Assembly: GCA_023139225.1 (NCBI GenBank)
Contig: JAGLNZ010000151.1
Span: 1 to 10,207 of the forward strand
Reading direction: 5' to 3'
Source: Desulfobacula sp.
GTDB taxonomy: Bacteria > Desulfobacterota > Desulfobacteria > Desulfobacterales > Desulfobacteraceae
Length of the DNA stretch: 10,207 nucleotides
This document shows, piece by piece, positions 1 through 10,207 of this stretch. The translations under genes were made by a program, and so were the position numbers. The notes under the pieces were generated by a model. It ran no database searches and had not been told where the DNA came from. It saw only the letters and a list, made by a program, of their open reading frames with translations. Each line of letters starts with the position of its first letter. Positions within the stretch are counted from its first letter, which is position 1.

Positions 1-1032
1 GGCGGTGTCCATTATGAAAAAGCAATGAAAAAAGAATCGACATCTAGACTTTTGCAGCATGGCAGCTTTCTGGAGCTGCTATTCTGGTCTCCCCAGGAAA
101 CAAAAATTATCACCTTTGCTCCTTTAAGAGCTGAAGAAAAAGTGTTACCAGCCTTGGCAGGGCCTGCACTGGGTGTTGTTGAAATTGTCCGGGATGTTTC
201 CAATGATTATAAAAAAGTGGTCAGGCTTCAAGGACTCACTGTCGGGTCCTGTTTTATTGTCATGGGGATACTTTTCTTAGTACTTCGGTTTGTTGTTAAA
301 CATGGAGAAAAAATTATAGAGCGAAGAGCTGAAGAAAGGCTTAAGCTTGAAGAAAAACTGCGCCGGGCTGAACACTTGTCTGCTATTGGTGAAATGACAG
401 CCGGGGTATCACACGAAATAAGAAATCCACTTGGAATTATAAAAAGCAGTGCTCAATTATTAAAAAAAAAGATGGCAAAACTGGACGCCAAAAGCAGCAT
501 ACCCGATATAATCGTCGAAGAGTCCGGCAGGCTTGATAATATTATTACGGATTTTCTTGATTTTGCCAGGCCTAAAATCCCGAATCTTCATCCCTGTAGA
601 ATTGAAGAAATCATAGAAAAAAATATTGCCTATCTTACCCCCCAGATAGAGGATAATAATTTCAACATTGTCAAAGAAATATCAAAAAATTTGCCTGAAG
701 TATTGGCTGACAGTGCAATGCTTTATCAGGCATTTTTAAATATTTTAATCAATGCATTCCAGTCCTTGAAAAATGATGGTTGTATTACCATACAAATAAA
801 GGTTGATTCCGGCAGTATTGTTATTAATTTTATTGATACCGGGAAAGGAATTTCAGAAAAGGTCTTAAAAAAAATATGGACACCATTTTTCACCACAAAA
901 GAGGCTGGAACAGGATTAGGCCTTGGTATCGTAAAGAATATGATTGAAGCCCACAACGGAACAATTGCAATCACCAATACTAAAACAAAAGGCGCGAATG
1001 TAGAAATTACACTTCCGGTTCAGGAGACTTAA
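1..1032 (+). CDS. Sensor histidine kinase, NtrB/ZraS-like (5' end missing)
   Basis: Membrane sensor kinase that should autophosphorylate on a histidine and pass the phosphate to the response regulator encoded next to it. The frame is open to base 1, so the true start lies outside the window; the internal ATG at 25 is unlikely to be the start. Counting from base 1, residues 1-78 look like the end of an extracytoplasmic sensor domain, 79-99 are one hydrophobic membrane helix, and a charged coiled linker follows. The H-box (GVSHEIRNPLG) has its phospho-accepting His at codon 412-414. The ATPase core is complete, with an N-box (ILINAFQSL), G1 (DTGKGIS), F-box (TPFFTTKE) and G2 (GTGLGLGIV). Only 5 bp separate it from the regulator, so the two are surely one operon. 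The signal sensed cannot be read because the sensor domain is cut. Confidence 0.93.
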   Translation, partial: GGVHYEKAMKKESTSRLLQHGSFLELLFWSPQETKIITFAPLRAEEKVLPALAGPALGVVEIVRDVSNDYKKVVRLQGLTVGSCFIVMGILFLVLRFVVKHGEKIIERRAEERLKLEEKLRRAEHLSAIGEMTAGVSHEIRNPLGIIKSSAQLLKKKMAKLDAKSSIPDIIVEESGRLDNIITDFLDFARPKIPNLHPCRIEEIIEKNIAYLTPQIEDNNFNIVKEISKNLPEVLADSAMLYQAFLNILINAFQSLKNDGCITIQIKVDSGSIVINFIDTGKGISEKVLKKIWTPFFTTKEAGTGLGLGIVKNMIEAHNGTIAITNTKTKGANVEITLPVQET

Positions 1033-1037
1033 CTTAA

Positions 1038-2408
1038 ATGGAAAATATTCTGATTGTTGACGATGAAAAAAACTACCCCATGATAATAGGAGAACTCCTT
1101 GGGGAAGAAGGCTATACATCCTTAACAGCTTCCAGTGGAATGGAAGCATTGGATATTTTGAATAATGAGCTAATAGACCTGGTTTTGACCGATGTAAATA
1201 TGCCCGGGATGAGCGGTATCCAGTTACTTGAAAAAATTAAGGAAATCAATCCGGATATCCCCGTAATCATCATGACTGCTTACGGCAGTGTTGAAAAAGC
1301 TGTAGAAGCTATGCACAAAGGTGCATACACATTTATTCTTAAGCCTTTTGAGAATCAGGCGCTTATTGCACACATTGCCAAGGCAATCTCGGTTTACAGG
1401 ATTGTTCAGGAGAACAGTATTCTCAGGGACGCAATCAGCTCAAGGTACAGCTTTGATAATATTATCGGGAAAAGCAAACCCATGCAGGAGATTTATGAAA
1501 TTATCAAAAAAGTCGCCCCTTCAAATGCCAGCTTTCTTATTGAAGGTGAAAGCGGCACTGGAAAAGAGCTGGTTGCAAAATCAATCCATTATAATAGTTT
1601 AAGAAAAAACAAATCTCTGGTTGCTGTAAACTGCTCTGCATTTGCTGAAACGCTTTTAGAAAGTGAGTTATTCGGTCATGAAAAAGGGGCTTTCACAGGG
1701 GCAAGCACTATGAAAAAAGGCCGGTTTGAACTTTCCGACAAGGGAACCCTCTTTCTTGATGAAATTGGTGAACTGCCCATATCCCTGCAGGTAAAATTAT
1801 TAAGGGTTCTTCAGGAAAAAACTATTGAACGAGTTGGAGGGACTTTGTCTATCCCGGTTGATTTCCGTCTCATTGCAGCCACCAACAAAGATCTTGAAAA
1901 TGAGGTAAAAAATGGTAATTTCAGAGAAGATCTCTATTACAGGCTTAATGTCGTCAAGACTGTCATTCCTCCCCTTCGAAAACGGTCCGAGGATATTCCT
2001 CTGCTAATCAACCACTTTATTGACAAATATACCAAAGGGCCGCACTCCTCAGGTAACGTATCCGAAATCAGCCATGAGGCTGTCAAGATTTTATGTGATT
2101 ACCAGTGGAACGGCAATGTAAGGGAACTTGAAAACATGATAGAACGCTGTGTCATTCTTTGCAGCAGCGATATAATTACCCCGTCCGATCTTCCATTGCA
2201 AATCAGACAGAGTATGCCTTCCACACTTGATCTAGATGGGATTCCTGAGGGTGTGGGCCTTGCTGAAACTCTGGCAGCGGTGGAGAAAAGAATGATACAA
2301 AGAGCGATGAAACTTTCAGGAAACATACAGACAAAAGCAGCTCAACTTTTGGGAATAGGGAAAAGCGGGTTGAATCAAAAACTAAAAAAGTTCAACCTTG
2401 ATAAATAG
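1038..2408 (+). CDS. NtrC-family sigma-54-dependent response regulator
   Basis: Activator of sigma-54 RNA polymerase, 456 residues, the usual length for the NtrC/ZraR group. A receiver domain (about 1-120) has the acidic pocket at D8-D9, the phospho-accepting D52 (LTDVNMPG), T80 and K102. The AAA+ domain (about 140-380) has Walker A GESGTGKE (170-177), the sigma-54 contact loop GAFTGA (217-222), Walker B LFLDEIGE and an arginine-rich sensor region. A Fis-type helix-turn-helix closes the protein (about 418-452). All key residues are present, so it should be functional. It is cotranscribed with the kinase; an AGGAG at 1021-1025 inside the end of the kinase gene is the likely ribosome site, somewhat far from the ATG. 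Its targets are unknown, but a sigma-54 promoter with paired upstream palindromes lies 2.8 kb downstream in this window. Confidence 0.96.
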   Translation: MENILIVDDEKNYPMIIGELLGEEGYTSLTASSGMEALDILNNELIDLVLTDVNMPGMSGIQLLEKIKEINPDIPVIIMTAYGSVEKAVEAMHKGAYTFILKPFENQALIAHIAKAISVYRIVQENSILRDAISSRYSFDNIIGKSKPMQEIYEIIKKVAPSNASFLIEGESGTGKELVAKSIHYNSLRKNKSLVAVNCSAFAETLLESELFGHEKGAFTGASTMKKGRFELSDKGTLFLDEIGELPISLQVKLLRVLQEKTIERVGGTLSIPVDFRLIAATNKDLENEVKNGNFREDLYYRLNVVKTVIPPLRKRSEDIPLLINHFIDKYTKGPHSSGNVSEISHEAVKILCDYQWNGNVRELENMIERCVILCSSDIITPSDLPLQIRQSMPSTLDLDGIPEGVGLAETLAAVEKRMIQRAMKLSGNIQTKAAQLLGIGKSGLNQKLKKFNLDK

Positions 2409-2439
2409 ATTACGCTGAAACTACTTTTTTGATATATAA

Positions 2440-2739
2440 TCAAGCAGCAGGATCAAATGTCTTGACTTCTCTTTCCAATCTGTCACCTAACTGCATTTTG
2501 GCCATTTCAGTATCATAGTGAACCTGAATTCCGGTCCAGAAATCAACAGACATCCCAAAATAATGTGCCAACCTTAGAGCAGTATCAGCACTGATTCCTC
2601 TTTCAAATCGAACAATTTTATTTATTCGCATGGCAGGAACGCCAATATCTTTAGCAATTCGATACTGGCTTATACCCATTGGTTTTAAGAACTCTTCAAG
2701 CAATATTTCACCAGGGTGTGTAGGGGGGAAATCTCTCAT
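2440..2739 (-). CDS. higA: HigA family antitoxin (XRE-type DNA-binding protein)
   Basis: Antitoxin that binds the HigB toxin and represses the shared promoter. It is 99 residues, typical of the VapI/HigA group. The N-terminus (FPPTHPGEILLEEFLKPMG) is the family signature, and a helix-turn-helix follows (about 23-60: ISQYRIAKDIGVPAMRINKI...RGISADTALRLAHYFG). The C-terminal FW(T)GIQ..YD segment is also typical. It lies 12 bp downstream of the toxin gene. The gene has a nearly ideal ribosome site, AAGGAGGTG (2745-2753, minus strand), 5 nt before its ATG and overlapping the toxin stop codon. This favours strong antitoxin translation, coupled to the toxin or independent of it. It is convergent with the response regulator, with 31 bp between the two stop codons. 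Confidence 0.95.
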   Translation of the reverse strand: MRDFPPTHPGEILLEEFLKPMGISQYRIAKDIGVPAMRINKIVRFERGISADTALRLAHYFGMSVDFWTGIQVHYDTEMAKMQLGDRLEREVKTFDPAA

Positions 2740-2751
2740 AATTGCACCTCC

Positions 2752-3033
2752 TTAATGATAATCAACAATTTCAACACCATGCACGCCATCCGCTTTCCAT
2801 TCAAAACAAATGCGCCATTTTTTATTAATGCGTATGCTGTGTTGCCCCTTTCGATTGCCACTGAGTGTTTCCAGTCGATTTGCAGGCGGTACTCTAAGAT
2901 CATTTATTTTAGCAGCTCTATGAAGCATAATTAGCTTCCTTTCAGCCAACCTTTGTATATCCTGTGGCAATTTTTTAGAAAAAAGACCATTAAATATAAA
3001 TTTGGTTTCTTTGCATTTAAAGTCTTTTATCAT
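2752..3033 (-). CDS. higB: HigB family toxin (RelE-like mRNA interferase)
   Basis: Toxin of the HigB/RelE fold, which cleaves mRNA on the ribosome. The 93 residues run from MIKDFKCKET to the family's usual C-terminus VEIVDYH, and the core signature PPANRLETLSGNRKGQHSIR, followed by a WRICFEW segment, is intact. I chose the ATG at 3033. An upstream in-frame TTG at 3069 would add 12 residues but lies inside the -35 box of the promoter and does not fit the family's N-terminus. No ribosome binding site precedes the ATG, and the -10 box ends only 7 bp before it, so the transcript probably begins at or next to the start codon. The toxin-first gene order is normal for higBA. Confidence 0.95.
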   Translation of the reverse strand: MIKDFKCKETKFIFNGLFSKKLPQDIQRLAERKLIMLHRAAKINDLRVPPANRLETLSGNRKGQHSIRINKKWRICFEWKADGVHGVEIVDYH

Positions 3034-3040
3034 GGTCAAT

Positions 3041-3069
3041 ATAGTAACCCATAAGAATATTATCGTCAA
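3041..3069 (-). promoter_or_regulatory. higBA promoter, sigma-70 type
   Basis: On the minus strand TTGACG (3064-3069) and TACTAT (3041-3046) are separated by exactly 17 bp, a strong housekeeping promoter. The -10 box ends 7 bp before the higB ATG, which places the transcript start at about the A of the ATG. A loose inverted repeat (ATGATACCCC against GGGTTACTAT, 7 of 10 matching) flanks the promoter core and could be the HigA operator, although that match is weak. Confidence 0.75.
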
Positions 3070-3075
3070 GGGGTA

Positions 3076-3336
3076 TCATTTTTTATAAAGAATACAAAAC
3101 TGAGAATTCCGCATCTTATGAAAAGTTCCCATGCCTACTCTGCCTATCCCTCTTGTGGCTTTCATACTTATGGCATTTTCATATACCTCTTTTATGTTTC
3201 TTAGAAGAAATAATTTATTGAAAATTATATAAGGACTCAAAAGTAACCTTTTTAACTTCTCCAAATAAGCGGTATCACCTGCTTCATTTGGCTTGTTGAT
3301 TTTTTCCACAAGGGTCAAACGTAGACCTGACCCCAT
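3076..3336 (-). other. Doubtful 86-codon reading frame between higBA and the DUF1624 gene
   Basis: An open frame begins at an ATG inside the inverted repeat at 3312-3333 and ends 7 bp upstream of the higBA -35 box. The product would be basic, with no recognised domain and no membrane or signal segment. The first part (about residues 10-48, with a leucine/lysine-rich stretch) could be a remnant of a real gene; the second half looks like unselected sequence. No convincing ribosome site was seen. I do not recognise it and think it more likely non-coding or residue of an insertion than a working gene. Confidence 0.25.
3312..3333. repeat. Short inverted repeat, possible mobile-element end
   Basis: GGGTCA (3312-3317) and TGACCC (3328-3333) form a perfect 6-bp inverted repeat around a 10-base centre. 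On the minus strand it reads GGGTCAGGTCTACGTTTGAC and onward. From memory, similar GGTCAGGTCTACxTTTGACC strings flank IS200/Y1-type transposase genes in related bacteria, so this may be a solitary REP-like end or excision scar. No transposase gene is visible nearby, and only this copy was noticed in the window. Confidence 0.4.
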
Positions 3337-3364
3337 TTTTTATCGTGGTAGGATCAAATCCGAT

Positions 3365-4501
3365 TTATATCAGTCGCATAGAAGAGGAGAGTCGGCTTTT
3401 TTGCTTTTGGTCTGCATAAACAGCACACAAAGGAAGCAAGATGATTAATCCTAAAATCCAAAACCAATACATTGCAGCAAGGGATATTTTGTCTGGATCT
3501 GTTAATTTGCTCATGAACGCATACAAAAACAAATGCAGAAGATAAAAAAATAATGGTGCCCGGCCAAGAATGGCCAATGGCGTTAACAGTGAACCGGCCT
3601 TTTTTTCTAAGAAATTGAAAAAACTTAAGACTATAAGGTTGATCCCAAGCGTAATCAGCAGCAAAGAAATACTTGGCGGATATTTCACAACATTAAGAAA
3701 GCCAATGAGACCCTCTTCACCTGACATGCGGATATTACCGAATCCTCCAATAATCCGAACAATCAAAAACAGGACAATCAAAAAGACACCTAAGTTTAAA
3801 GAAAAATACGGATTCCTTGTTTCCCGTAATTTAAAATATTTGCCAAATGCCATTCCAAGTGATGTAACACCCAACCAGGGCATAACAGGATAGAGAACAA
3901 ACATACCCGCACCCGGGGTATACCCGGGAAGTAGCCAGATCCGAAGATGAAGCGGGTAAAGGACATATCCTTTTGTTTCCGGGAGCAATACCTCTGTCAT
4001 TGCGACAAGTAAAAAGCCGGATAATACCAAAATAAAAGGCGGAAGCTCCAGCAGCAAGATGCCCAAAAGCATGGAACACCCAAGTGCAAACAGTACACCG
4101 AAATAAAGGGGCATCTCTCCAAAACCAAAACTCCAGGCAGGATTTTCCATTAAAAACTGGAATCCGATTAAAAGTGCCCCCCGTTTGACAAAATAAAGGT
4201 AAATTCGAGAACGTGTCCACCCTTTGGCTTTTCTGGATGCGTAAAGAAAGATCATGCCGCTCCCCATTAGGAAGAAAAAACCGGGTGCTGCCAAGTGGCT
4301 GACAAACCGTGTCATAAAAGCAAAAAGATCCCCCTGGTATTGGGTGAATTGGCCTATCCAGATTTCATACCCGCCTTTTGACACACAAAGAAAGTTTCGG
4401 GCATGGTCCAGGGCCATGAATACCATAATAAATCCGCGCAGAGCATCCATTCCAAGAAATCTTTGAGTGTGTTCAAGGGATAAAAGGGTCTTCAGTTTCA
4501 T
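3365..4501 (-). CDS. DUF1624 / heparan-alpha-glucosaminide N-acetyltransferase-like membrane protein
   Basis: Polytopic inner-membrane protein of 378 residues. Near the N-terminus it carries the MDALRGF motif (18-24) and the LDHARNF segment with a conserved histidine at 33. Both are hallmarks of the HGSNAT-like/DUF1624 group, thought to move acyl groups across the membrane. Roughly eight to ten hydrophobic helices fill the rest (for example around 95-110, 135-170, 230-250, 280-300 and 330-360). The substrate in bacteria is not established, so no reaction is assigned. The ATG at 4501 follows a modest AAGG (about 8 nt away) that overlaps the stop codon of the decayed gene upstream. The two were probably an operon before the upstream gene broke. 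No clear terminator follows its stop. Confidence 0.85.
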   Translation of the reverse strand: MKLKTLLSLEHTQRFLGMDALRGFIMVFMALDHARNFLCVSKGGYEIWIGQFTQYQGDLFAFMTRFVSHLAAPGFFFLMGSGMIFLYASRKAKGWTRSRIYLYFVKRGALLIGFQFLMENPAWSFGFGEMPLYFGVLFALGCSMLLGILLLELPPFILVLSGFLLVAMTEVLLPETKGYVLYPLHLRIWLLPGYTPGAGMFVLYPVMPWLGVTSLGMAFGKYFKLRETRNPYFSLNLGVFLIVLFLIVRIIGGFGNIRMSGEEGLIGFLNVVKYPPSISLLLITLGINLIVLSFFNFLEKKAGSLLTPLAILGRAPLFFYLLHLFLYAFMSKLTDPDKISLAAMYWFWILGLIILLPLCAVYADQKQKSRLSSSMRLI

Positions 4502-4510
4502 TACCCAACC

Positions 4511-4960
4511 TTATTCATTATTATTCCTGTTAGAGATCAAATCCTTTAAAGCAACTTTTCGAAACCCTGTGGTTTTTAACAACTCTTTTTTCACTTCTAA
4601 TACATATGGTGTGTCATACTGACGATTGTAATATACAATTTATCCGGAGATTCCGAAGATCATAAACAAAAGAATATATTGTGAACGAGTTTTAGTGTGT
4701 CGCCTTTAAAACTGATGTCGTAGATACCATAATCGGATTCTCTATGGTGCCCGTTTTTGAAAGCATTTTATTTGCGAGTTTATACCTATTGCTTATCCAG
4801 TTGCCTTTGTCAAGTTTTCCATAGTTAAAGTTGGTAGAAATCAAAAAACCATTTCCTTGGATTTTCTTTTATAGGTTAGCTCACCATCAGCTCCTGGGTG
4901 AATCACCACGGCATCCCCTGATTTATCGGCAAAGGCAAAATGGATCTGATAATCAATCGA
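4511..4960 (-). pseudogene. Decayed linear-amide C-N hydrolase (penicillin acylase-like), 3' remnant
   Basis: The minus strand translates, in three successive frames, into pieces that line up as the C-terminal half of an Ntn-type linear-amide hydrolase / acyl-CoA:6-APA acyltransferase-like protein. First piece, from codon 4954: DYQIHFAFADKSGDAVVIHP. After a frame change near 4857: NGFLISTNFNYGKLDKGNW, leading to VSTTSVLKATH, a stop at 4692-4694 where a Gln may have stood, then TIYSFVYDLRNLRI. After a second frame change near 4640: YYNRQYDTPYVLEVKKELL, ending at TAA 4511-4513. The N-terminal half, with the nucleophile expected at its start, is absent: upstream of 4960 the sequence turns very AT-rich and non-coding. 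The family call rests on remembered motifs (ADKSGDAVVI, GFLISTNFN, YSxVYDL) and is probable, not certain; that the gene is broken is clear. Confidence 0.72.
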
Positions 4961-4984
4961 TAAATAGTATAAAAAATAATATAC

Positions 4985-5002
4985 AGTTCAAAATTTTAAA
5001 CT
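4985..5002. promoter_or_regulatory. Upstream palindrome 1, candidate enhancer site
   Basis: AGTTCAAAATTTTAAACT matches its own reverse complement at 16 of 18 positions. It is nearly identical to the second palindrome at 5075-5092 and lies exactly 90 bp from it, centre to centre. The distance upstream of the sigma-54 promoter (about 225 bp to the -24 element) is in the normal range for binding sites of NtrC-type activators. The protein that binds is unknown. Confidence 0.6.
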
Positions 5003-5073
5003 ATTTTTAAACTTATCATTTTAGTTATATTTATAGACAGTTAACAATAAAATCCATTTAATTCATTAAAAGT

Positions 5074-5093
5074 GAGTTCAAAATCTTGAACTC
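5074..5093. promoter_or_regulatory. Upstream palindrome 2, candidate enhancer site
   Basis: GAGTTCAAAATCTTGAACTC matches its own reverse complement at 18 of 20 positions. It shares AGTTCAAAAT-TT-AACT with the first palindrome. Its centre is about 136 bp upstream of the -24 element of the sigma-54 promoter, a typical enhancer distance. The A/T-rich stretch between it and the promoter could allow looping; I found no clear IHF consensus there. Confidence 0.65.
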
Positions 5094-5217
5094 TTTGTCA
5101 TTATTTTTCAATTTAGCTGTGGTAAAGAAAGAGTATTAAAATTCCAGATAACAATAAAATAGCAATAATTTCAGATAATTAAAAAAAATCTTGGGAATGA
5201 AAATTATTTTACATATT

Positions 5218-5234
5218 TTGGCAGGGAAATTGCA
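5218..5234 (+). promoter_or_regulatory. Sigma-54 (-24/-12) promoter facing a gene-less strand
   Basis: TTGGCAGGGAAATTGCA matches the sigma-54 consensus YTGGCACG-N4-TTGCW at all but one position (G for C after TGGCA). It keeps the invariant GG and GC with exactly 10 bases between them. The expected start site is about 5245-5246. Transcription would run rightward through 5246-5324 to the strong terminator; the next genes are all on the opposite strand. Confidence 0.85.
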
Positions 5235-5250
5235 GTATAAATTTTATACT
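5234..5250. promoter_or_regulatory. 17-bp perfect palindrome at the sigma-54 start site
   Basis: AGTATAAATTTTATACT is its own reverse complement around a central base. It begins at the last base of the -12 element and covers the predicted transcript start, a position suited to an operator that blocks open-complex formation. It is also AT-rich, so it could simply help melting. Confidence 0.5.
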
Positions 5251-5324
5251 AACGTAATGTTAGTTTTTTCATCTTTTTTCCTTTTCTTAAAAAGGCTGCA
5301 GCGGCAAAGCTAAGCAGCCTTTTT
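5246..5324 (+). ncRNA. Candidate sigma-54-dependent small RNA, about 80 nt
   Basis: Defined by a sigma-54 promoter ending 12 bp upstream and a strong hairpin terminator at its 3' end. The predicted RNA has a small 5' hairpin (ACTAAC, loop GTAAT, GTTAGT; 5248-5264). Next comes a single-stranded stretch of about 25 nt (5264-5288) made almost only of U and C, including UUUUUUCCUUUUCUU. The terminator hairpin with its U-run closes it. Hairpin, C/U-rich middle and U-tailed terminator is the usual layout of a trans-acting regulatory RNA, and the C/U segment could pair with purine-rich ribosome sites such as AAGGAAAA. No open frame of useful length exists inside. The U-run after the first hairpin could end some transcripts early. 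Existence is inferred from signals only. Confidence 0.5.
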
Positions 5325-5326
5325 AA
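5287..5326. terminator. Strong bidirectional hairpin terminator
   Basis: TTAAAAAGGCTGC (5287-5299) and GCAGCCTTTTTAA (5314-5326) form a perfect 13-bp stem. A further AGC/GCT pairing inside the loop extends it past a two-base bulge. The A-run and T-run on opposite arms let it stop transcription both ways. It ends the iron operon on the minus strand, 7 bp after the last stop codon, and the sigma-54 transcript on the plus strand. Confidence 0.9.
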
Positions 5327-5333
5327 GTTCAGA

Positions 5334-6023
5334 TCACTTTATTTCATCAATTTTGCTTTTGGCAATTGGCTTATACATTGAATTTTCATATTCCGTCACA
5401 ATTTTTTCATACATTTTTTTGCTCTCAACCGTATTATTAGCACTTTCGTACAACATGGCCAGTGTAAATCTTGCTTCATCTTTCAAAAGGTCGGTTTTCC
5501 CTTGCTCTATTTGAAAAAAATACTGCTTTGCTTCTTCAAACTCTTTTCTGGCAAGGCATACATGCCCCAGCGATGCTAAAAGAAAATTTTCCATCAGGGC
5601 TTCATTCTTAAACACCTCAAGGGATTGTTTATAATATTTATAACTTTGGTCAAATTCTGAAGCTTCATAACAAATTTTGGCAAATTTAACCAACGCCTGC
5701 CTTCCTGCAATTGTATTGGCATAATCCGTAAAAATAATTTGAAAATCATTTTTGGCGGCAAGATATCCTTTATCCGGATCATTGGCTTTTGCATATTTGG
5801 TTAATGCCTGACTGACAAGTCTGGCAGCACTGTTTTCAGCCCTTTTAAAACTGTACATTACCCCTGAAAAAACCACTGCCACCAAAACAACGGCAGTCGC
5901 AATCAGGATCAATTGTTTTTTATATTCTTTTACATAGGTCATTGCCTTTAAAAGATTTTCCTGAAAAGGATCTAATTGTTCAAGTTCCTTTTTCCGTTCA
6001 TTTGACACTTTCTGATCTGCCAT
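5334..6023 (-). CDS. YfgM-like membrane-anchored TPR protein
   Basis: Predicted inner-membrane protein of 229 residues. A short charged cytoplasmic N-terminus (1-36) is followed by one hydrophobic helix (about 37-58) and an all-helical periplasmic region with tetratricopeptide-like repeats (for example YYKQSLEVFKNEALMENFLLA, LGHVCLARKEFEEAKQYFFQ and ARFTLAMLYESANNTVESKKMYEKIV). The layout and N-terminal KKELEQLDPFQ resemble the YfgM/TPR_21 group, linked in E. coli to the Sec translocon and periplasmic chaperones. A specific role here is not known. It is the last gene of the iron operon, 38 bp after the SH3 protein gene and just before the hairpin terminator. The start ATG at 6023 follows AAGGCGGA at a somewhat long distance. 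Confidence 0.8.
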   Translation of the reverse strand: MADQKVSNERKKELEQLDPFQENLLKAMTYVKEYKKQLILIATAVVLVAVVFSGVMYSFKRAENSAARLVSQALTKYAKANDPDKGYLAAKNDFQIIFTDYANTIAGRQALVKFAKICYEASEFDQSYKYYKQSLEVFKNEALMENFLLASLGHVCLARKEFEEAKQYFFQIEQGKTDLLKDEARFTLAMLYESANNTVESKKMYEKIVTEYENSMYKPIAKSKIDEIK

Positions 6024-6061
6024 TCTTCCATTCCGCCTTAAAATATATTAATAAATAATAA

Positions 6062-6529
6062 TTACCATACAAGTGTTTTATAAATCCAGCCTATATCCCC
6101 ATCAGCATGCTCAATTTTAATCCAGTTGCCTTTTCTTGAAAGAACCTTAAACGGCACACCTTTTTCAACTGTGAACAAAATACTGCTCTTGGTATTTGGT
6201 TTGGATCGGACATTGCATTTGTTTTTAATCGTAATAACACCTTCCAGCTTGCCTAAAAGGGATTTATGAAGCCATGCCACATCATTTTCAAAATCCTTTA
6301 TTTTATACCAGTTGCCCTTCTTTTGGACAATTGTGACAGGATGGTATTGCTCAACCTGCCATAACACATCATGTTTCGTCCCGGGGCCTGACCGCATATT
6401 GGCAATATCGGCCGTAACACAAAGTCTTTGTTGTGCAAAAACCAGACCTGGTAAAATCAAAAAAACCGCCATTATGGCCGGCATTGCTTTAGTAATTTTA
6501 ATGATGACTTCAATATTTAAACGCTTCAT
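6062..6529 (-). CDS. Secreted protein with two bacterial SH3 domains
   Basis: Probable periplasmic protein of 155 residues. A Sec signal peptide (about 1-32, with a hydrophobic core MAVFLILPGLV and likely cleavage after VFA) precedes two SH3b (SH3_3) repeats at about 36-93 and 99-153. Each has the typical NxRSxPxTK...V..G......KGNW.KI......W..KSLL pattern. Such domains usually bind cell-wall peptides or proteins; no enzyme domain is attached. I chose the ATG at 6529 because GGAGG stands 7 nt before it and the signal peptide then begins normally. An upstream in-frame start at 6559 would overlap the end of feoB and spoil the signal peptide. It lies 22 bp after feoB and is probably cotranscribed with it. 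Confidence 0.85.
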   Translation of the reverse strand: MKRLNIEVIIKITKAMPAIMAVFLILPGLVFAQQRLCVTADIANMRSGPGTKHDVLWQVEQYHPVTIVQKKGNWYKIKDFENDVAWLHKSLLGKLEGVITIKNKCNVRSKPNTKSSILFTVEKGVPFKVLSRKGNWIKIEHADGDIGWIYKTLVW

Positions 6530-6551
6530 AAAAAGCCTCCGTATTATTCTT

Positions 6552-8723
6552 TCAACCAAAGCCTAGCATCATTCCCGTTCGGTATACCAAAAAAGACATG
6601 CCCCATGCAACCATAGTTGTATATATCAGGTTAAAACCGGCCCATTTTGCTGAAGTTTCCCTGTAAATAGTTACTACAGTCGCAAAACAAGGCACATACA
6701 ATAAAACAAAAACCATCATTGAGAGTGCAGAAAGAGCTGTCATACCGGAATTTTTAAGTGCTTTTTCAAGCGCCTCACTCTCATCATTGCCAACACCATA
6801 TAACACACCCATTGTACTGACAACAACCTCTTTTGCAACAAAACCTGTAACAAGTGCAACACTTGCCCGCCACCCTATTCCAATGGGTTCAAATACTGCC
6901 TCTAGCGCTTTACCAATTTTACCGATATATGATTTGGATACCCGTTCCTGCTCTTTTCTATTATTAATATCTTTCAATAACAGCGTTAATTGCCGGTTTA
7001 ATTGTTCAGTCTCATGATCAGCCGCCAAAGTGATTCTTTGGGAATAATCATATTTTACGGCATTGATCTTTTCATCATAATCCACAGAATAGGAAATTGT
7101 TCTTGGAAAACTTGAAAGTGCCCATATAATAATTGAACCGATAAGAATAACACCACCCATTTTTTTTAAAAACATTTTGCCTCTATCCCACATGTGGATC
7201 AAAAGACTTTTTAACATAGGCATTCTGTATGGCGGCAACTCCATAATAAACGGGGCCTCTACACCTTTAAAGAAAACAGCCCTTAAGAGTCTGCCGGATA
7301 AAATAGCAATAACAATACCAGTAAAATACAGGCCGAAAATAACGGTACCGGCCTTTTCAGCAAAAAAACTGCCGGCCAGGACAATATAAACCGGAAGCCT
7401 TGCCGAGCAGGACATAAATGGTGTCATCAGAATTGTTAAAATCCGGTCTTTCTCACTCTCCAGGGTTCGCGTGGCCATAATCGCAGGCACAGTGCAGCCA
7501 AACCCCATTAACATAGGAATAAAGGATTTTCCGTGAAGCCCGGATGTATGCATCACCCGGTCCATTAAAAAAGCAGCTCTTGCCATATAGCCGGTATCCT
7601 CAAAAAGAGCAATGCAGAAAAACAGGATAAGAATATTGGGAAGAAAAATTATGACACTGCCTATTCCCGCGATGACACCGTCTAACAAAAGATCTTTTAA
7701 CATGGATGGCGGCATGATCTTATCAAGGCTGCCCGACAGCGCCGAAACTGCCATATCTATCCATTCCATAGGATATGCACCAAGGGAGAATGACAATTGA
7801 AACATGGCCCATATAAAAAAAATAAATACGGGTATTCCCAAAAATCTATCCGTAAGGACAAGATCAATATTTCGTGACATATCGATACGTTTAGTGGCAA
7901 GATTGCTTATAGTTTCTTTTGCAATCCCTGCAATAACTCCATACCGGTCATCGGTCAGTACAATCTCAAAATCATCTTCAAACAAATCATAAATTCTTTT
8001 GCGACACTCCCCTGCTGTTTGAAAAACCTCTTTTGATACCTGTGATGACAGATTCTGAAATCTTGTTTTAACAATTTTATCATCTTCTAGAATTTTAATT
8101 GCATTCCATCTCAATGCACCATCAATATCTATTTCACTTTGGAGAATCCCGGTTTCAATCTTTGAAATACATCCTTCGATCTCCTGACCGTATCTGATAT
8201 CCCGACTTTTTTTCCCTTTACTAAACCGATTAACTTCCTCAATAGCCGCCTCAACAAGATTATCAATACCTTTATTTTTATTTCCAATGGTGAAGACGAC
8301 AGGCAATCCTAACAATTGGGATAATTTTTTTTCATCAATTTTGATCCCTTTTGCCTGGGCAACATCCGCCATATTCAGTACAAATAAAGCGGGATGCCCA
8401 AGTTCAAGAATTTGAATAGCAAGAAAAAGGCTTCGTTCAAGATTCGAGGCATCAATAATACTGATAACGATATCCGGATTTTCATTTAAAATAAAATCCC
8501 TGGCCGTGATTTCTTCAATTGAGAATGGCGTAAGGCTATAGGTACCCGGAAGATCAACAATCCTCAAGTCATAATCTTTATGTTTTAACTTTCCTTCTTT
8601 TTTCTCCACAGTGACGCCCGGCCAGTTTCCCACTTTCTGCCTGGCGCCGGTGAGGGTGTTAAATATTGTTGTTTTGCCGCTATTGGGATTCCCGGCAAGG
8701 GCAATGGTCAATTTCTTAGTCAT
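6552..8723 (-). CDS. feoB: Ferrous iron transporter FeoB
   Basis: Inner-membrane Fe(II) importer of 723 residues, normal length. The cytoplasmic GTPase domain has G1 GNPNSGKT (11-18), the switch threonine T38 in PGVTVE, G3 DLPG (57-60) and G4 NMAD (117-120). A helical FeoB-associated domain follows (about 170-280), then the membrane part, with the first gate motif MGFGCTVPAIMATRTL (406-421) and a second gate region near the C-terminus (YVPCFATVVTIYRE). The cysteine in each gate is present. A soluble charged insertion (about 575-635) sits between helices, as in many FeoB proteins. The start ATG lies 1 nt after the stop of the Fur-FeoA gene, so translation is coupled. No separate feoC was found. 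Confidence 0.97.
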   Translation of the reverse strand: MTKKLTIALAGNPNSGKTTIFNTLTGARQKVGNWPGVTVEKKEGKLKHKDYDLRIVDLPGTYSLTPFSIEEITARDFILNENPDIVISIIDASNLERSLFLAIQILELGHPALFVLNMADVAQAKGIKIDEKKLSQLLGLPVVFTIGNKNKGIDNLVEAAIEEVNRFSKGKKSRDIRYGQEIEGCISKIETGILQSEIDIDGALRWNAIKILEDDKIVKTRFQNLSSQVSKEVFQTAGECRKRIYDLFEDDFEIVLTDDRYGVIAGIAKETISNLATKRIDMSRNIDLVLTDRFLGIPVFIFFIWAMFQLSFSLGAYPMEWIDMAVSALSGSLDKIMPPSMLKDLLLDGVIAGIGSVIIFLPNILILFFCIALFEDTGYMARAAFLMDRVMHTSGLHGKSFIPMLMGFGCTVPAIMATRTLESEKDRILTILMTPFMSCSARLPVYIVLAGSFFAEKAGTVIFGLYFTGIVIAILSGRLLRAVFFKGVEAPFIMELPPYRMPMLKSLLIHMWDRGKMFLKKMGGVILIGSIIIWALSSFPRTISYSVDYDEKINAVKYDYSQRITLAADHETEQLNRQLTLLLKDINNRKEQERVSKSYIGKIGKALEAVFEPIGIGWRASVALVTGFVAKEVVVSTMGVLYGVGNDESEALEKALKNSGMTALSALSMMVFVLLYVPCFATVVTIYRETSAKWAGFNLIYTTMVAWGMSFLVYRTGMMLGFG

Positions 8724-8724
8724 A

Positions 8725-9699
8725 TTACATTTTTTTAAATCTTACCTTTTCAACAAAAATATTTGCAGCTTCCTCAACCCGAAGCGATAAATGATATCCT
8801 TTGATAACTAATTCAATGGGATCTTTTAGTGGTGCATATTTTTCGACATATATGACCGATCCCCTGTTGATTCCCATTTCAAGCAATCTGCGTCTTAAAA
8901 CGCTTTCTCCTGAAACCTTTCGAATAATTCCTTCCTGACCGGTTTTCATTTGGCTGAGCAACATGGATGCTTGAAGGATATCCTTGGGTTCCTGGTAATC
9001 ATCATGGTTTTGTATTCTTACCTGATCAAAGGGTTGAACCCTTATTTTTTCTGCCATGCCCTTACCTAAAACCAAACGGTTTTCTCCTACCGCAATCACC
9101 ACCTGACCACCAAACCCGGCAGAGACAATTTCAACTAAATCCCCAATTTTAAGCCCCATTGAAGAAATCCGCAACTGCATATTTTTGCCGGCATCAAAAT
9201 CTTTGACAATCAGCTTCTCCCCTTGTTTTGCCTTATGAAGTGAAACTATCGTATTGCGATGTTCCATACACTTGGAACAAATGCCGTATATTTCCATTTT
9301 ATGCTGAAGCATATGGAACCCATAAGCATCTGCAACCTTGTGCTGTTGTTTTTCTATCGCCTCATCCTTAAATTCCAGAATGCTGCCGCATTGTAGACAT
9401 ACCATATGGTCATGATGTAACCCTAGGTGCCTGTGTTCATATTTGGTTTCCTTGTCATGAAACTCTATTTTACTTGCAAATCCGAACCTGCACAAAAGCT
9501 CCATGCTGTTTAATACAAAACCTTCATCAATCTTAAGTCCTTCCTGTCTAAGCTGGGCCAGGATATCTTTGATGGTTACATGATGCTCAAGTTTTAAAAA
9601 AGCTTCCAAAACCTGAAACCTTAAGGCAAACCGGTCAATACCCTGTTGCTGGAACAACCTTTTAAACTGCTTTTTTTCTTGCTCATGCGTATTGATCAT
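8725..9699 (-). CDS. Fur-FeoA-FeoA fusion protein
   Basis: Three modules in one 324-residue chain. Residues 1-148 are a Fur-type repressor: a winged-helix DNA-binding half (about 20-82), the metal-site signature HRHLGLHHDHMVCLQCG (89-105) and a second pair of cysteines CSKC (141-144), giving the two CxxC structural zinc motifs. Residues about 151-229 and 248-320 are two FeoA SH3-like domains. Each has the MGL/MGI..G..V.I/V motif; the first contains SSMGLKIGDLVEIVSAGFGG, the second RRRLLEMGINRGSVIYVEK. FeoA normally works as a small separate partner of FeoB, so this protein may both sense iron for the operon and act on the transporter. The start is the ATG at 9699, with GAAGGG 9 nt before it. 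A TTG at 9729 is in frame but only 3 bp from the -10 box, hence upstream of the transcript start. Confidence 0.92.
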   Translation of the reverse strand: MINTHEQEKKQFKRLFQQQGIDRFALRFQVLEAFLKLEHHVTIKDILAQLRQEGLKIDEGFVLNSMELLCRFGFASKIEFHDKETKYEHRHLGLHHDHMVCLQCGSILEFKDEAIEKQQHKVADAYGFHMLQHKMEIYGICSKCMEHRNTIVSLHKAKQGEKLIVKDFDAGKNMQLRISSMGLKIGDLVEIVSAGFGGQVVIAVGENRLVLGKGMAEKIRVQPFDQVRIQNHDDYQEPKDILQASMLLSQMKTGQEGIIRKVSGESVLRRRLLEMGINRGSVIYVEKYAPLKDPIELVIKGYHLSLRVEEAANIFVEKVRFKKM

Positions 9700-9732
9700 T
9701 GCTTTTATCCCTTCAAAATAACGTTTCAAGAT

Positions 9733-9760
9733 ATTATAGCCGGGTGTTTATGTCAAGCAA
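9733..9760 (-). promoter_or_regulatory. Promoter of the fur-feoA-feoB operon
   Basis: On the minus strand a perfect -10 box TATAAT (9733-9738) lies 16 bp from TTGCTT (9755-9760), a weak -35. A better-looking TTGACA is only 12 bp away and too close. The predicted start near 9726 gives a leader of about 27 nt containing the GAAGGG ribosome site. The -35 lies inside one arm of an inverted repeat. I did not recognise a classical Fur box. Confidence 0.65.
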
Positions 9761-9800
9761 ATGGCATCTGAAACTTGTATCCTTATAAATATTGCTTGAC
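9752..9800. repeat. 9-bp inverted repeat between divergent promoters
   Basis: GTCAAGCAA (9752-9760) and TTGCTTGAC (9792-9800) are perfect reverse complements whose starts are 40 bp apart. Each arm overlaps a -35-like element, one pointing to the iron operon and the other to the rightward gene. It could be a shared operator for an iron-responsive or other regulator, with looping or dimer binding, though this is inferred only from position. Confidence 0.55.
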
Positions 9801-9824
9801 CCTGCAAACAAGATCTGTTTTAGT
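9796..9824 (+). promoter_or_regulatory. Possible promoter of the rightward gene
   Basis: TTGACC (9796-9801) and TTTAGT (9819-9824) are 17 bp apart. The -35 is good but the -10 is weak (4 of 6). The leader to the ATG at 9888 would be about 58 nt and contains the second copy of a TAAAATATTC repeat. Confidence 0.35.
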
Positions 9825-9887
9825 TTTAAAATATTCAAAGCATATTGGGGATTGGTTTTTCCCGACTAAAATATTCTGGAGTTCTTA

Positions 9888-10207
9888 ATGAAGGCACTTG
9901 ACTATTCAAAAATTTTAATTTTCCTTTGCCTTGTTTCTTTGCTATTTGTCATCTTTACCGGGCCTGTGACTGGAACAGACCTGTCTTCAAGTAACTTAAA
10001 AATTGGGATCTATGATAATCCGCCAAAACTTTTTATCGATGAAAATAATCTGGCAAAAGGTATTTTCCCCGGACTTATCAAAACTATTGCAAAAAAAGAA
10101 GGGTGGAAAATCAAATTCATTCCCCTTTCATTCAAAGAAGGATTAGAAGGTCTTGAAAAAGGGACCATTGATATTATGCAGGATGTTGCCTGGTCAGAAA
10201 AAAGAAG
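9888..10207 (+). CDS. Periplasmic solute-binding (SBP_bac_3-like) domain protein, 3' end missing
   Basis: The ATG at 9888 is preceded by GGAG 8 nt upstream. The first 28 or so residues form a signal peptide or membrane anchor (hydrophobic ILIFLCLVSLLFVIFTG). The mature part begins like a type-3 extracellular solute-binding domain: LKIGIYDNPPKLFIDENN, then GIFPGLIKTIAKKEGWKI, a GLEGLEKGTIDIMQDVAWS segment and a sensor-style ligand cleft. The window ends after about 106 codons with the frame open. In this kind of organism such domains are often the sensor part of a histidine kinase or diguanylate cyclase, and the absence of transporter genes nearby fits that. The C-terminal half is needed to decide. 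It is divergent from the iron operon. Confidence 0.82.
   Translation, partial: MKALDYSKILIFLCLVSLLFVIFTGPVTGTDLSSSNLKIGIYDNPPKLFIDENNLAKGIFPGLIKTIAKKEGWKIKFIPLSFKEGLEGLEKGTIDIMQDVAWSEKR

Follow-up and report, generated by a model that had tools for sequence, protein, structure and literature searches.

What does a sigma-54 promoter serve when the strand behind it carries no gene? This question is raised by the window, as we call the whole stretch of DNA analysed here, 10,207 nucleotides of a Desulfobacula sp. genome (GenBank assembly GCA_023139225.1, contig JAGLNZ010000151.1, positions 1 to 10,207). In a preliminary description the promoter had been read as driving a small regulatory RNA, with leaky antisense transcription into the neighbouring feo genes or a promoter left over from a lost gene as alternatives. 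According to our analysis, the unit at 5219-5327 is well supported by sequence comparison as an sRNA gene, and its product would be trans-acting and probably the dedicated output of the adjacent two-component system. We consider it likely that this system switches on an RNA, driven by sigma-54 and independent of Hfq, by which the translation of porin mRNAs is blocked.

The putative sRNA unit and its copies

The promoter (TGGCAGGGAAATTGCA, 5219-5234, + strand) differs by one mismatch from TGGCACNNNNNTTGCW, the consensus of sigma-54 promoters at -24/-12, and keeps the GG-N10-GC spacing, both as first described. It is the only single-mismatch match in the window. At up to two mismatches, 8 matches were found where 5.46 were expected, and this number was reached by 44 of 200 shuffles. 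Taken alone, the promoter match is statistically weak; it is raised above chance because it is conserved in relatives, where a -24/-12 promoter with the same spacing stands at a fixed place before the RNA, as in sigma-54-dependent sRNA genes.

The predicted small RNA (5245-5327, + strand) has its putative 5' end placed by the promoter spacing and its 3' end by the terminator. The fold predicted for an RNA of 86 nt has an energy of -28.6 kcal/mol (z -6.84), and none of 200 shuffles was equally stable. A short 5' hairpin (5248-5253/5259-5264, + strand) is followed by a pyrimidine block (5264-5287, + strand; CAU at 5270-5272) that is predicted to be unpaired, its U/C run being interrupted by a single A within a conserved CAUC. 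The terminator hairpin (5286-5327, + strand) emerged from pairing, folding and covariation, and is missing from the list of a simple terminator scan because its loop exceeds the length allowed there. Its arms (5286-5299 and 5314-5327) pair perfectly, as had been claimed, over 14 bp rather than the 13 bp originally given. The hairpin is probably shared with the convergent TPR gene (5334-6023, - strand; domain match and relatives). Downstream of the unit the + strand holds only short ORFs that overlap genes of the - strand. The earlier statements on the missing gene and on the short hairpin followed by a U/C stretch hold as well. Farther along, positions 8725-9729 (- strand) encode, in one frame upstream of FeoB, a Fur-type domain and after it FeoA domains in two matched stretches, an apparent Fur-FeoA fusion.

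In order to find relatives of the unit, 58 genomes including the window's own were searched with positions 5190-5334 (E <= 0.01), and matches were obtained in 42 of them, including all 26 of the genus Desulfobacula. The match in G009 (68% complete) covers 21 nt only and is no sRNA copy; one or more copies are present in each of the other 25 Desulfobacula genomes, 18 of which have both of two types, A and B. Copy A is located between an NtrC-type regulator gene and the convergent TPR gene of the feo cluster, which is its conserved neighbour. The order kinase-regulator-sRNA was found for 18 of the 21 A copies of the genus, counting regulators inside the upstream flank examined, while the remaining three are accounted for by contig ends (L004, L009) and by an insert in the window. 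Among the 23 B-type loci with neighbours listed, 13 lie behind ahcY, identified from the C-terminus of its product, and the others have different contexts, a contig end or neighbours not displayed. Three elements are common to the two types: TGGCA-N6-TTGC, which in two B copies carries a C-to-T change, then UUUUUUCAUCUUUUUUUCCUUUUC or a sequence very close to it, and a terminator. The 5' hairpin is typical of A copies and is missing from most B copies. Individual genomes show further variation, such as an extra copy in G003 (L041:1464-1574), which adds to the other copy of that genome and has a terminator sequence of its own and, at about -230, a near-palindrome, and a partial duplication of the terminator 3' arm in the A copy of G005 (L005:1479-1581, - strand).

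Promoter, block and terminator are thus kept together in relatives that share the feo neighbourhood, and also in the copies behind ahcY. This comparison supports the original reading of a sigma-54-controlled regulatory RNA. Neither leaky antisense transcription into feo nor a promoter left over from a lost gene explains the second copies behind ahcY or those in other families.

Across the order, the pattern TGGCAN6TTGC-N18-48-TTTCATCTT was detected at 48 places in 41 of 291 sampled genomes (reversed control: 0), while a decoy with the spacer lengthened by one base was detected at 12 places in 11 genomes, none of them in the genus. Seven of the 48 places, showing neither C-rich block nor terminator, were judged false (for G171 the listing was the sole source). 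After their removal, 41 places in about 35 of the 291 genomes and in 11 families remain, some of the 41 being read at the matched part only. Distant copies carry AACCUAAUAAUUUUUUCAUCUUUUUUUCCUCCUU or variants of it, and their terminator stems are unrelated in sequence. Of 20 longer regions, 11 show the order kinase-regulator-sRNA-TPR, one of these being the genus copy L301, and among the other nine are regions with a different context, with TPR only or with a contig edge, and probable false matches. In G147, two sRNA copies with different terminators stand in tandem about 290 bp apart (L302:5158-5560). An alignment of 55 copies from the window's family shows pair-keeping changes on both sides in 11 of the 15 terminator pairs, and the 5' hairpin is absent from its consensus structure. 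The block is nearly invariant across copies, and where it changes by lineage it moves to other valid Shine-Dalgarno (SD) spacings. A comparison with Rfam 15 gave two sub-gathering matches only for the window at E <= 1, elsewhere in the window and inside genes, and no match at gathering score for 10 relative loci.

The adjoining two-component system and a shared palindrome

The link of the sRNA to a two-component system (25-2408) and the palindromes described below go beyond the preliminary description, as does the finding that the U/C stretch is complementary to an entire start site with its AUG. The histidine kinase gene (1-1032, + strand) is cut at its 5' end by the edge of the window and contig; its ORF is listed from 25, the frame runs on to base 1, and the relative L301 encodes a kinase of 471 aa. 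HisKA and HATPase_c domains were found in the kinase, the N-terminal half of which has no Pfam match. The proposed activator is an NtrC-family response regulator (1038-2408, + strand) with receiver, sigma-54 interaction and Fis-type HTH domains (Pfam). The kinase resembles AtoS/ZraS and the regulator AtoC, both below the NCBIfam cut-offs. An insert of about 2.6 kb, found in this genome only, places the regulator about 2.8 kb from the promoter, compared to about 160 bp in L301. The insert genes (HigA-like, HigB-like and HGSNAT-like by domain matches; 2440-4501, - strand), which lie between regulator and sRNA, are outside the regulatory circuit. The HigA/HigB-like toxin-antitoxin pair (2440-3069, - strand) is missing at this place in the relatives read.

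A palindrome scan of the region before the promoter revealed GAGTTCAAAATCTTGAACTC (5074-5093, core 5076-5091), which we posit to be the enhancer (UAS) of the regulator, and a second, imperfect copy with one mismatch (4986-5001). The palindrome (A)GTTCAAAATNTTGAAC(T) recurs upstream of copies of both types, and also in other families, mostly 120-240 bp before the promoter. Among 75 distinct copies, 70 have at least 250 nt of upstream sequence, and in these it is present exactly in 42, with at most one mismatch in 57 and with at most two mismatches in 62, leaving eight without it; shuffled upstream sequences gave about 0.2 of 70 at the two-mismatch level. A search of 10 whole genomes, totalling about 43 Mb, for exact GTTCAAAATNTTGAAC gave 16 distinct sites (reversed control: 0). 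In 14 cases an sRNA promoter follows at a distance of 124-225 bp, one site precedes a slightly variant B copy, and the sixteenth is found at a contig edge beside ahcY, where a B copy would follow. Given this distribution, the sRNA genes appear to form the dedicated output of a single regulator, the one encoded next to copy A. The linked regulator would accordingly be the protein that binds the palindrome.

Complementarity to porin translation starts

The reverse complement of the pyrimidine block reads AAAGGA-(A)n-G-ATG-AAA-AAA, an ideal translation start (AAAGGA-A-rich-GATGAAAAAA), which makes the block, the putative seed, an antisense of SD, AUG and Lys-Lys. The earlier suggestion that the C/U segment could bind ribosome sites is strengthened by this mirror image and by the identity of its best gene-start complements, which are porin starts. 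A search of the genus with AAGGAAAAN{2,4}GATGAAAAAA returned 49 places in 23 of the 26 genomes (reversed control: 0), 31 of them sRNA genes and 18 other places. Together with the similarity search this gave 48 distinct non-sRNA places that were translated, leaving out two similarity matches that lie outside the block, and 22 of the 48 encode porins or outer-membrane barrels. Every one of the 11 best matches at gene starts (E < 1e-5) belongs to a porin; an equally strong match, L198, is not a gene start. These porin labels rest on homology to named porins, to Porin_4 or to DUF3373, or on membership in the same families by protein search, with matches to NF033939 ('outer membrane homotrimeric porin') that fall well short of its cut-off and a few labels (such as L153, L176 and L189) given by resemblance only. 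Complementary starts occur in 17 of the 26 genus genomes, in two of them only as DUF3373 proteins. No complementary porin start was found in the other nine, among them the window's own genome (77% complete), for which the start-pattern search returned none. In L053 (G012), one of the 11 best matches, the porin gene is split over two frames, apparently by a frameshift, and the complementary start is kept.

Pairing was then expressed as predicted energy. Within two porin families, which were first picked through complementarity and whose members as relatives are not independent, the pairing with the window's block has a predicted energy of -26 to -40 kcal/mol for 11 of the 12 members found by protein search (query included); L284, a porin paralogue and the twelfth member, is not complementary. 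The best of 287 background genes (400 kb of one genome) reached -23.1 kcal/mol against the same block, and shuffled blocks averaged -10.0 kcal/mol. A G directly before the ATG is present in 11 of 11 of these porins, compared to 18 of 248 background genes. When sRNAs were paired with candidate targets of their own genomes (18 genomes, 27 sRNA-target pairs with one chosen target each), the best pair per genome ranged from -29.4 to -43.7 kcal/mol and the worst single pair gave -22.6 kcal/mol. Scored against the sRNAs of 24 of the 27 pairs, the 287 genes had minima of -19.8 to -29.9 kcal/mol, and 23 of these 24 own pairs were predicted to be stronger than every background gene, the exception being the B copy of G025.

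As in porin-silencing sRNAs, a conserved unpaired seed is therefore complementary to porin 5' regions, a feature that does not extend to Porin_4 proteins at large. A Porin_4 family search with 13 loci scored regardless of start site gave two strong pairs only; L255 and L262 had no usable start and were left out, and the automatic start of at least one locus, L253, is doubtful. Porins as a whole class of targets were thus rejected, and we narrowed the target claim to particular porin families, because complementarity is lacking in most porins of the Porin_4 type. In other families the candidate targets are of the same class. Across 19 genomes there that carry the sRNA, nine of 24 pattern places are sRNA copies. 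Among the 15 other places there are four porins by NF033939 (L348, L351, L352 and L359), two proteins that are barrel-like by reading (L339 and L358), an OmpA-family, a LolA-like and an SLT protein, one solute-binding-like protein (by reading), two apparently exported proteins without known family, and three unclear frames.

The diversity of the latter set bears on who the targets are. It is conceivable, and we mention it tentatively, that the RNA is made as proposed and acts on all exported or envelope proteins starting with SD-AUG-Lys-Lys, porins being just the best match. The OmpA-family, LolA-like, SLT transglycosylase and solute-binding-like matches in other families point in this direction, and a nearly invariant block would suit many targets. 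However, the strongest matches are porins, and the 32 signal-peptide-like genes among the background reach only -23.1 kcal/mol.

We regard it as unlikely that the sigma-54-driven RNA titrates a protein or another RNA without pairing to porin mRNAs, as CrcZ does from the same gene order and as a pyrimidine-rich RNA able to bind protein might do. The mirror image of a start site in the block extends to the AUG and to the base preceding it, and the block shifts by lineage to other valid SD spacings. Moreover, Hfq, the partner of CrcZ, was not detected: PF17209 was above cut-off in none of 38 genomes, and the same search recovered it from 5 of 14 controls, including E. coli and B. subtilis. A small Sm-like protein frame, L361 (G010), fell below the Hfq cut-off and was not counted as Hfq.

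There is very little to recommend a leader peptide, in which the conserved piece would be a tiny frame of the - strand (SD-ATG-AAA-AAA...) and the + strand RNA secondary: most copies do have a good SD and ATG on the reverse complement, but the frames read 4-23 codons (one 30) with no conserved peptide or stop, and the conserved promoter and palindrome face the + strand. A chance promoter-like site beside the terminator of the TPR gene, with no RNA gene at all, is extremely improbable, since the complete unit is found again behind ahcY as well as in other families. This holds even though two-mismatch promoter matches do not exceed chance level in the window and the TPR gene can make use of the terminator.

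Proposed circuit and known systems

The reading we prefer is porin silencing by a dedicated sRNA. From the conserved anatomy of the unit, its linkage to the regulator, the exact palindrome restricted to sRNA genes in 10 genomes and the complementarity to porin starts, all read from the DNA, we infer transcription, regulator binding, repression and an inducing signal along the following lines. A membrane sensor kinase would phosphorylate the NtrC-family regulator, which would bind the two palindromes, located about 145 and 235 bp before the promoter. Sigma-54 polymerase would then start at about 5245 and stop near 5325, and the exposed block of the RNA would pair over roughly 23-35 nt with the SD, start codon and first codons of porin mRNAs, blocking ribosome entry. 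Because its sequence mirrors porin mRNA start sites, the sRNA probably shuts porin production down, and, with Hfq undetectable, a long run of unbroken pairing probably stands in for the chaperone. At least two copies per genome would provide added dose and small differences in target choice. The inducing signal is perhaps outer-membrane stress or porin overload.

We are evenly divided over a broader proposal, that Desulfobacterales possess an outer-membrane homeostasis circuit of their own in place of sigmaE-RybB/MicA. In it, a two-component system with a dedicated sigma-54, multi-copy start-mirror RNA would silence porins and other envelope proteins as a class without Hfq, through 23-35 nt of near-continuous pairing, and the mirror would be re-tuned to the start-site style of each lineage. 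If the preferred reading is true, an RNA family of environmentally important sulfate reducers would gain a regulator, a binding site, targets and a likely function, and trans-acting sRNA action in bacteria without detectable Hfq would become directly testable.

Several known systems share parts of this design. In LuxO-Qrr of Vibrio, an NtrC-family regulator drives several sigma-54 sRNA copies that pair with mRNAs, as proposed here; the Qrr sRNAs differ in being Hfq-dependent, in serving quorum sensing and in being unrelated in sequence to the Desulfobacula sRNA. A regulator with an ncRNA downstream is already known among sulfate reducers, as two reports on D. vulgaris describe ncRNAs directly downstream of the sigma-54 regulators DVU0679 (Dv_sRNA2) and DVU0653, and give the function of Dv_sRNA2 as unknown (PMC3333781, PMC4641369). 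The likeness, drawn by gene order only, is that an NtrC-type regulator is immediately followed by a sigma-54-dependent ncRNA, in a sulfate reducer belonging to the same broad group. Among the literature matches listed, with most subscription journals outside the coverage, there was no description of the Desulfobacula RNA, nor of the combination of a dedicated two-component system, sigma-54, a start-site mirror, no detectable Hfq and porins.

The gene order is also that of CbrAB-CrcZ in Pseudomonas, where kinase, NtrC-family regulator and sigma-54 sRNA stand in a row and further copies (CrcY, CrcX) lie elsewhere in the genome (PMC8871633). In Desulfobacula the sRNA is likewise directly downstream of its own NtrC-family two-component system. 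CrcZ sequesters Hfq/Crc in that account (PMC8871633), whereas the Desulfobacula RNA mirrors mRNA start sites and Hfq was not detected. Identity with CrcZ was ruled out, as Hfq was above cut-off in 0 of 38 genomes.

With regard to the proposed function, the closest parallels are sRNAs that lower outer-membrane protein mRNAs. MicA/RybB and VrrA are reported to do so, VrrA by pairing with the ompA 5' region (PMC1804206, PMC2628432), but under the control of sigmaE instead of a two-component system with sigma-54, and with other sequences. Similarly, two sRNAs of Fusobacterium nucleatum, FoxI and FoxJ, are reported to repress the abundant porin FomA in a host said to be without Hfq and ProQ, and these differ in their sigmaE control, their C-stretch seed and their unrelated phylum (PMC11005410). 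Compared to such sigmaE-type porin-silencing sRNAs, the conserved promoter in Desulfobacula is of the sigma-54 type. Porin silencing under sigma-54 and a dedicated two-component system would, if true, represent a further independent RNA route to this end besides the sigmaE routes of Gammaproteobacteria and Fusobacteria.
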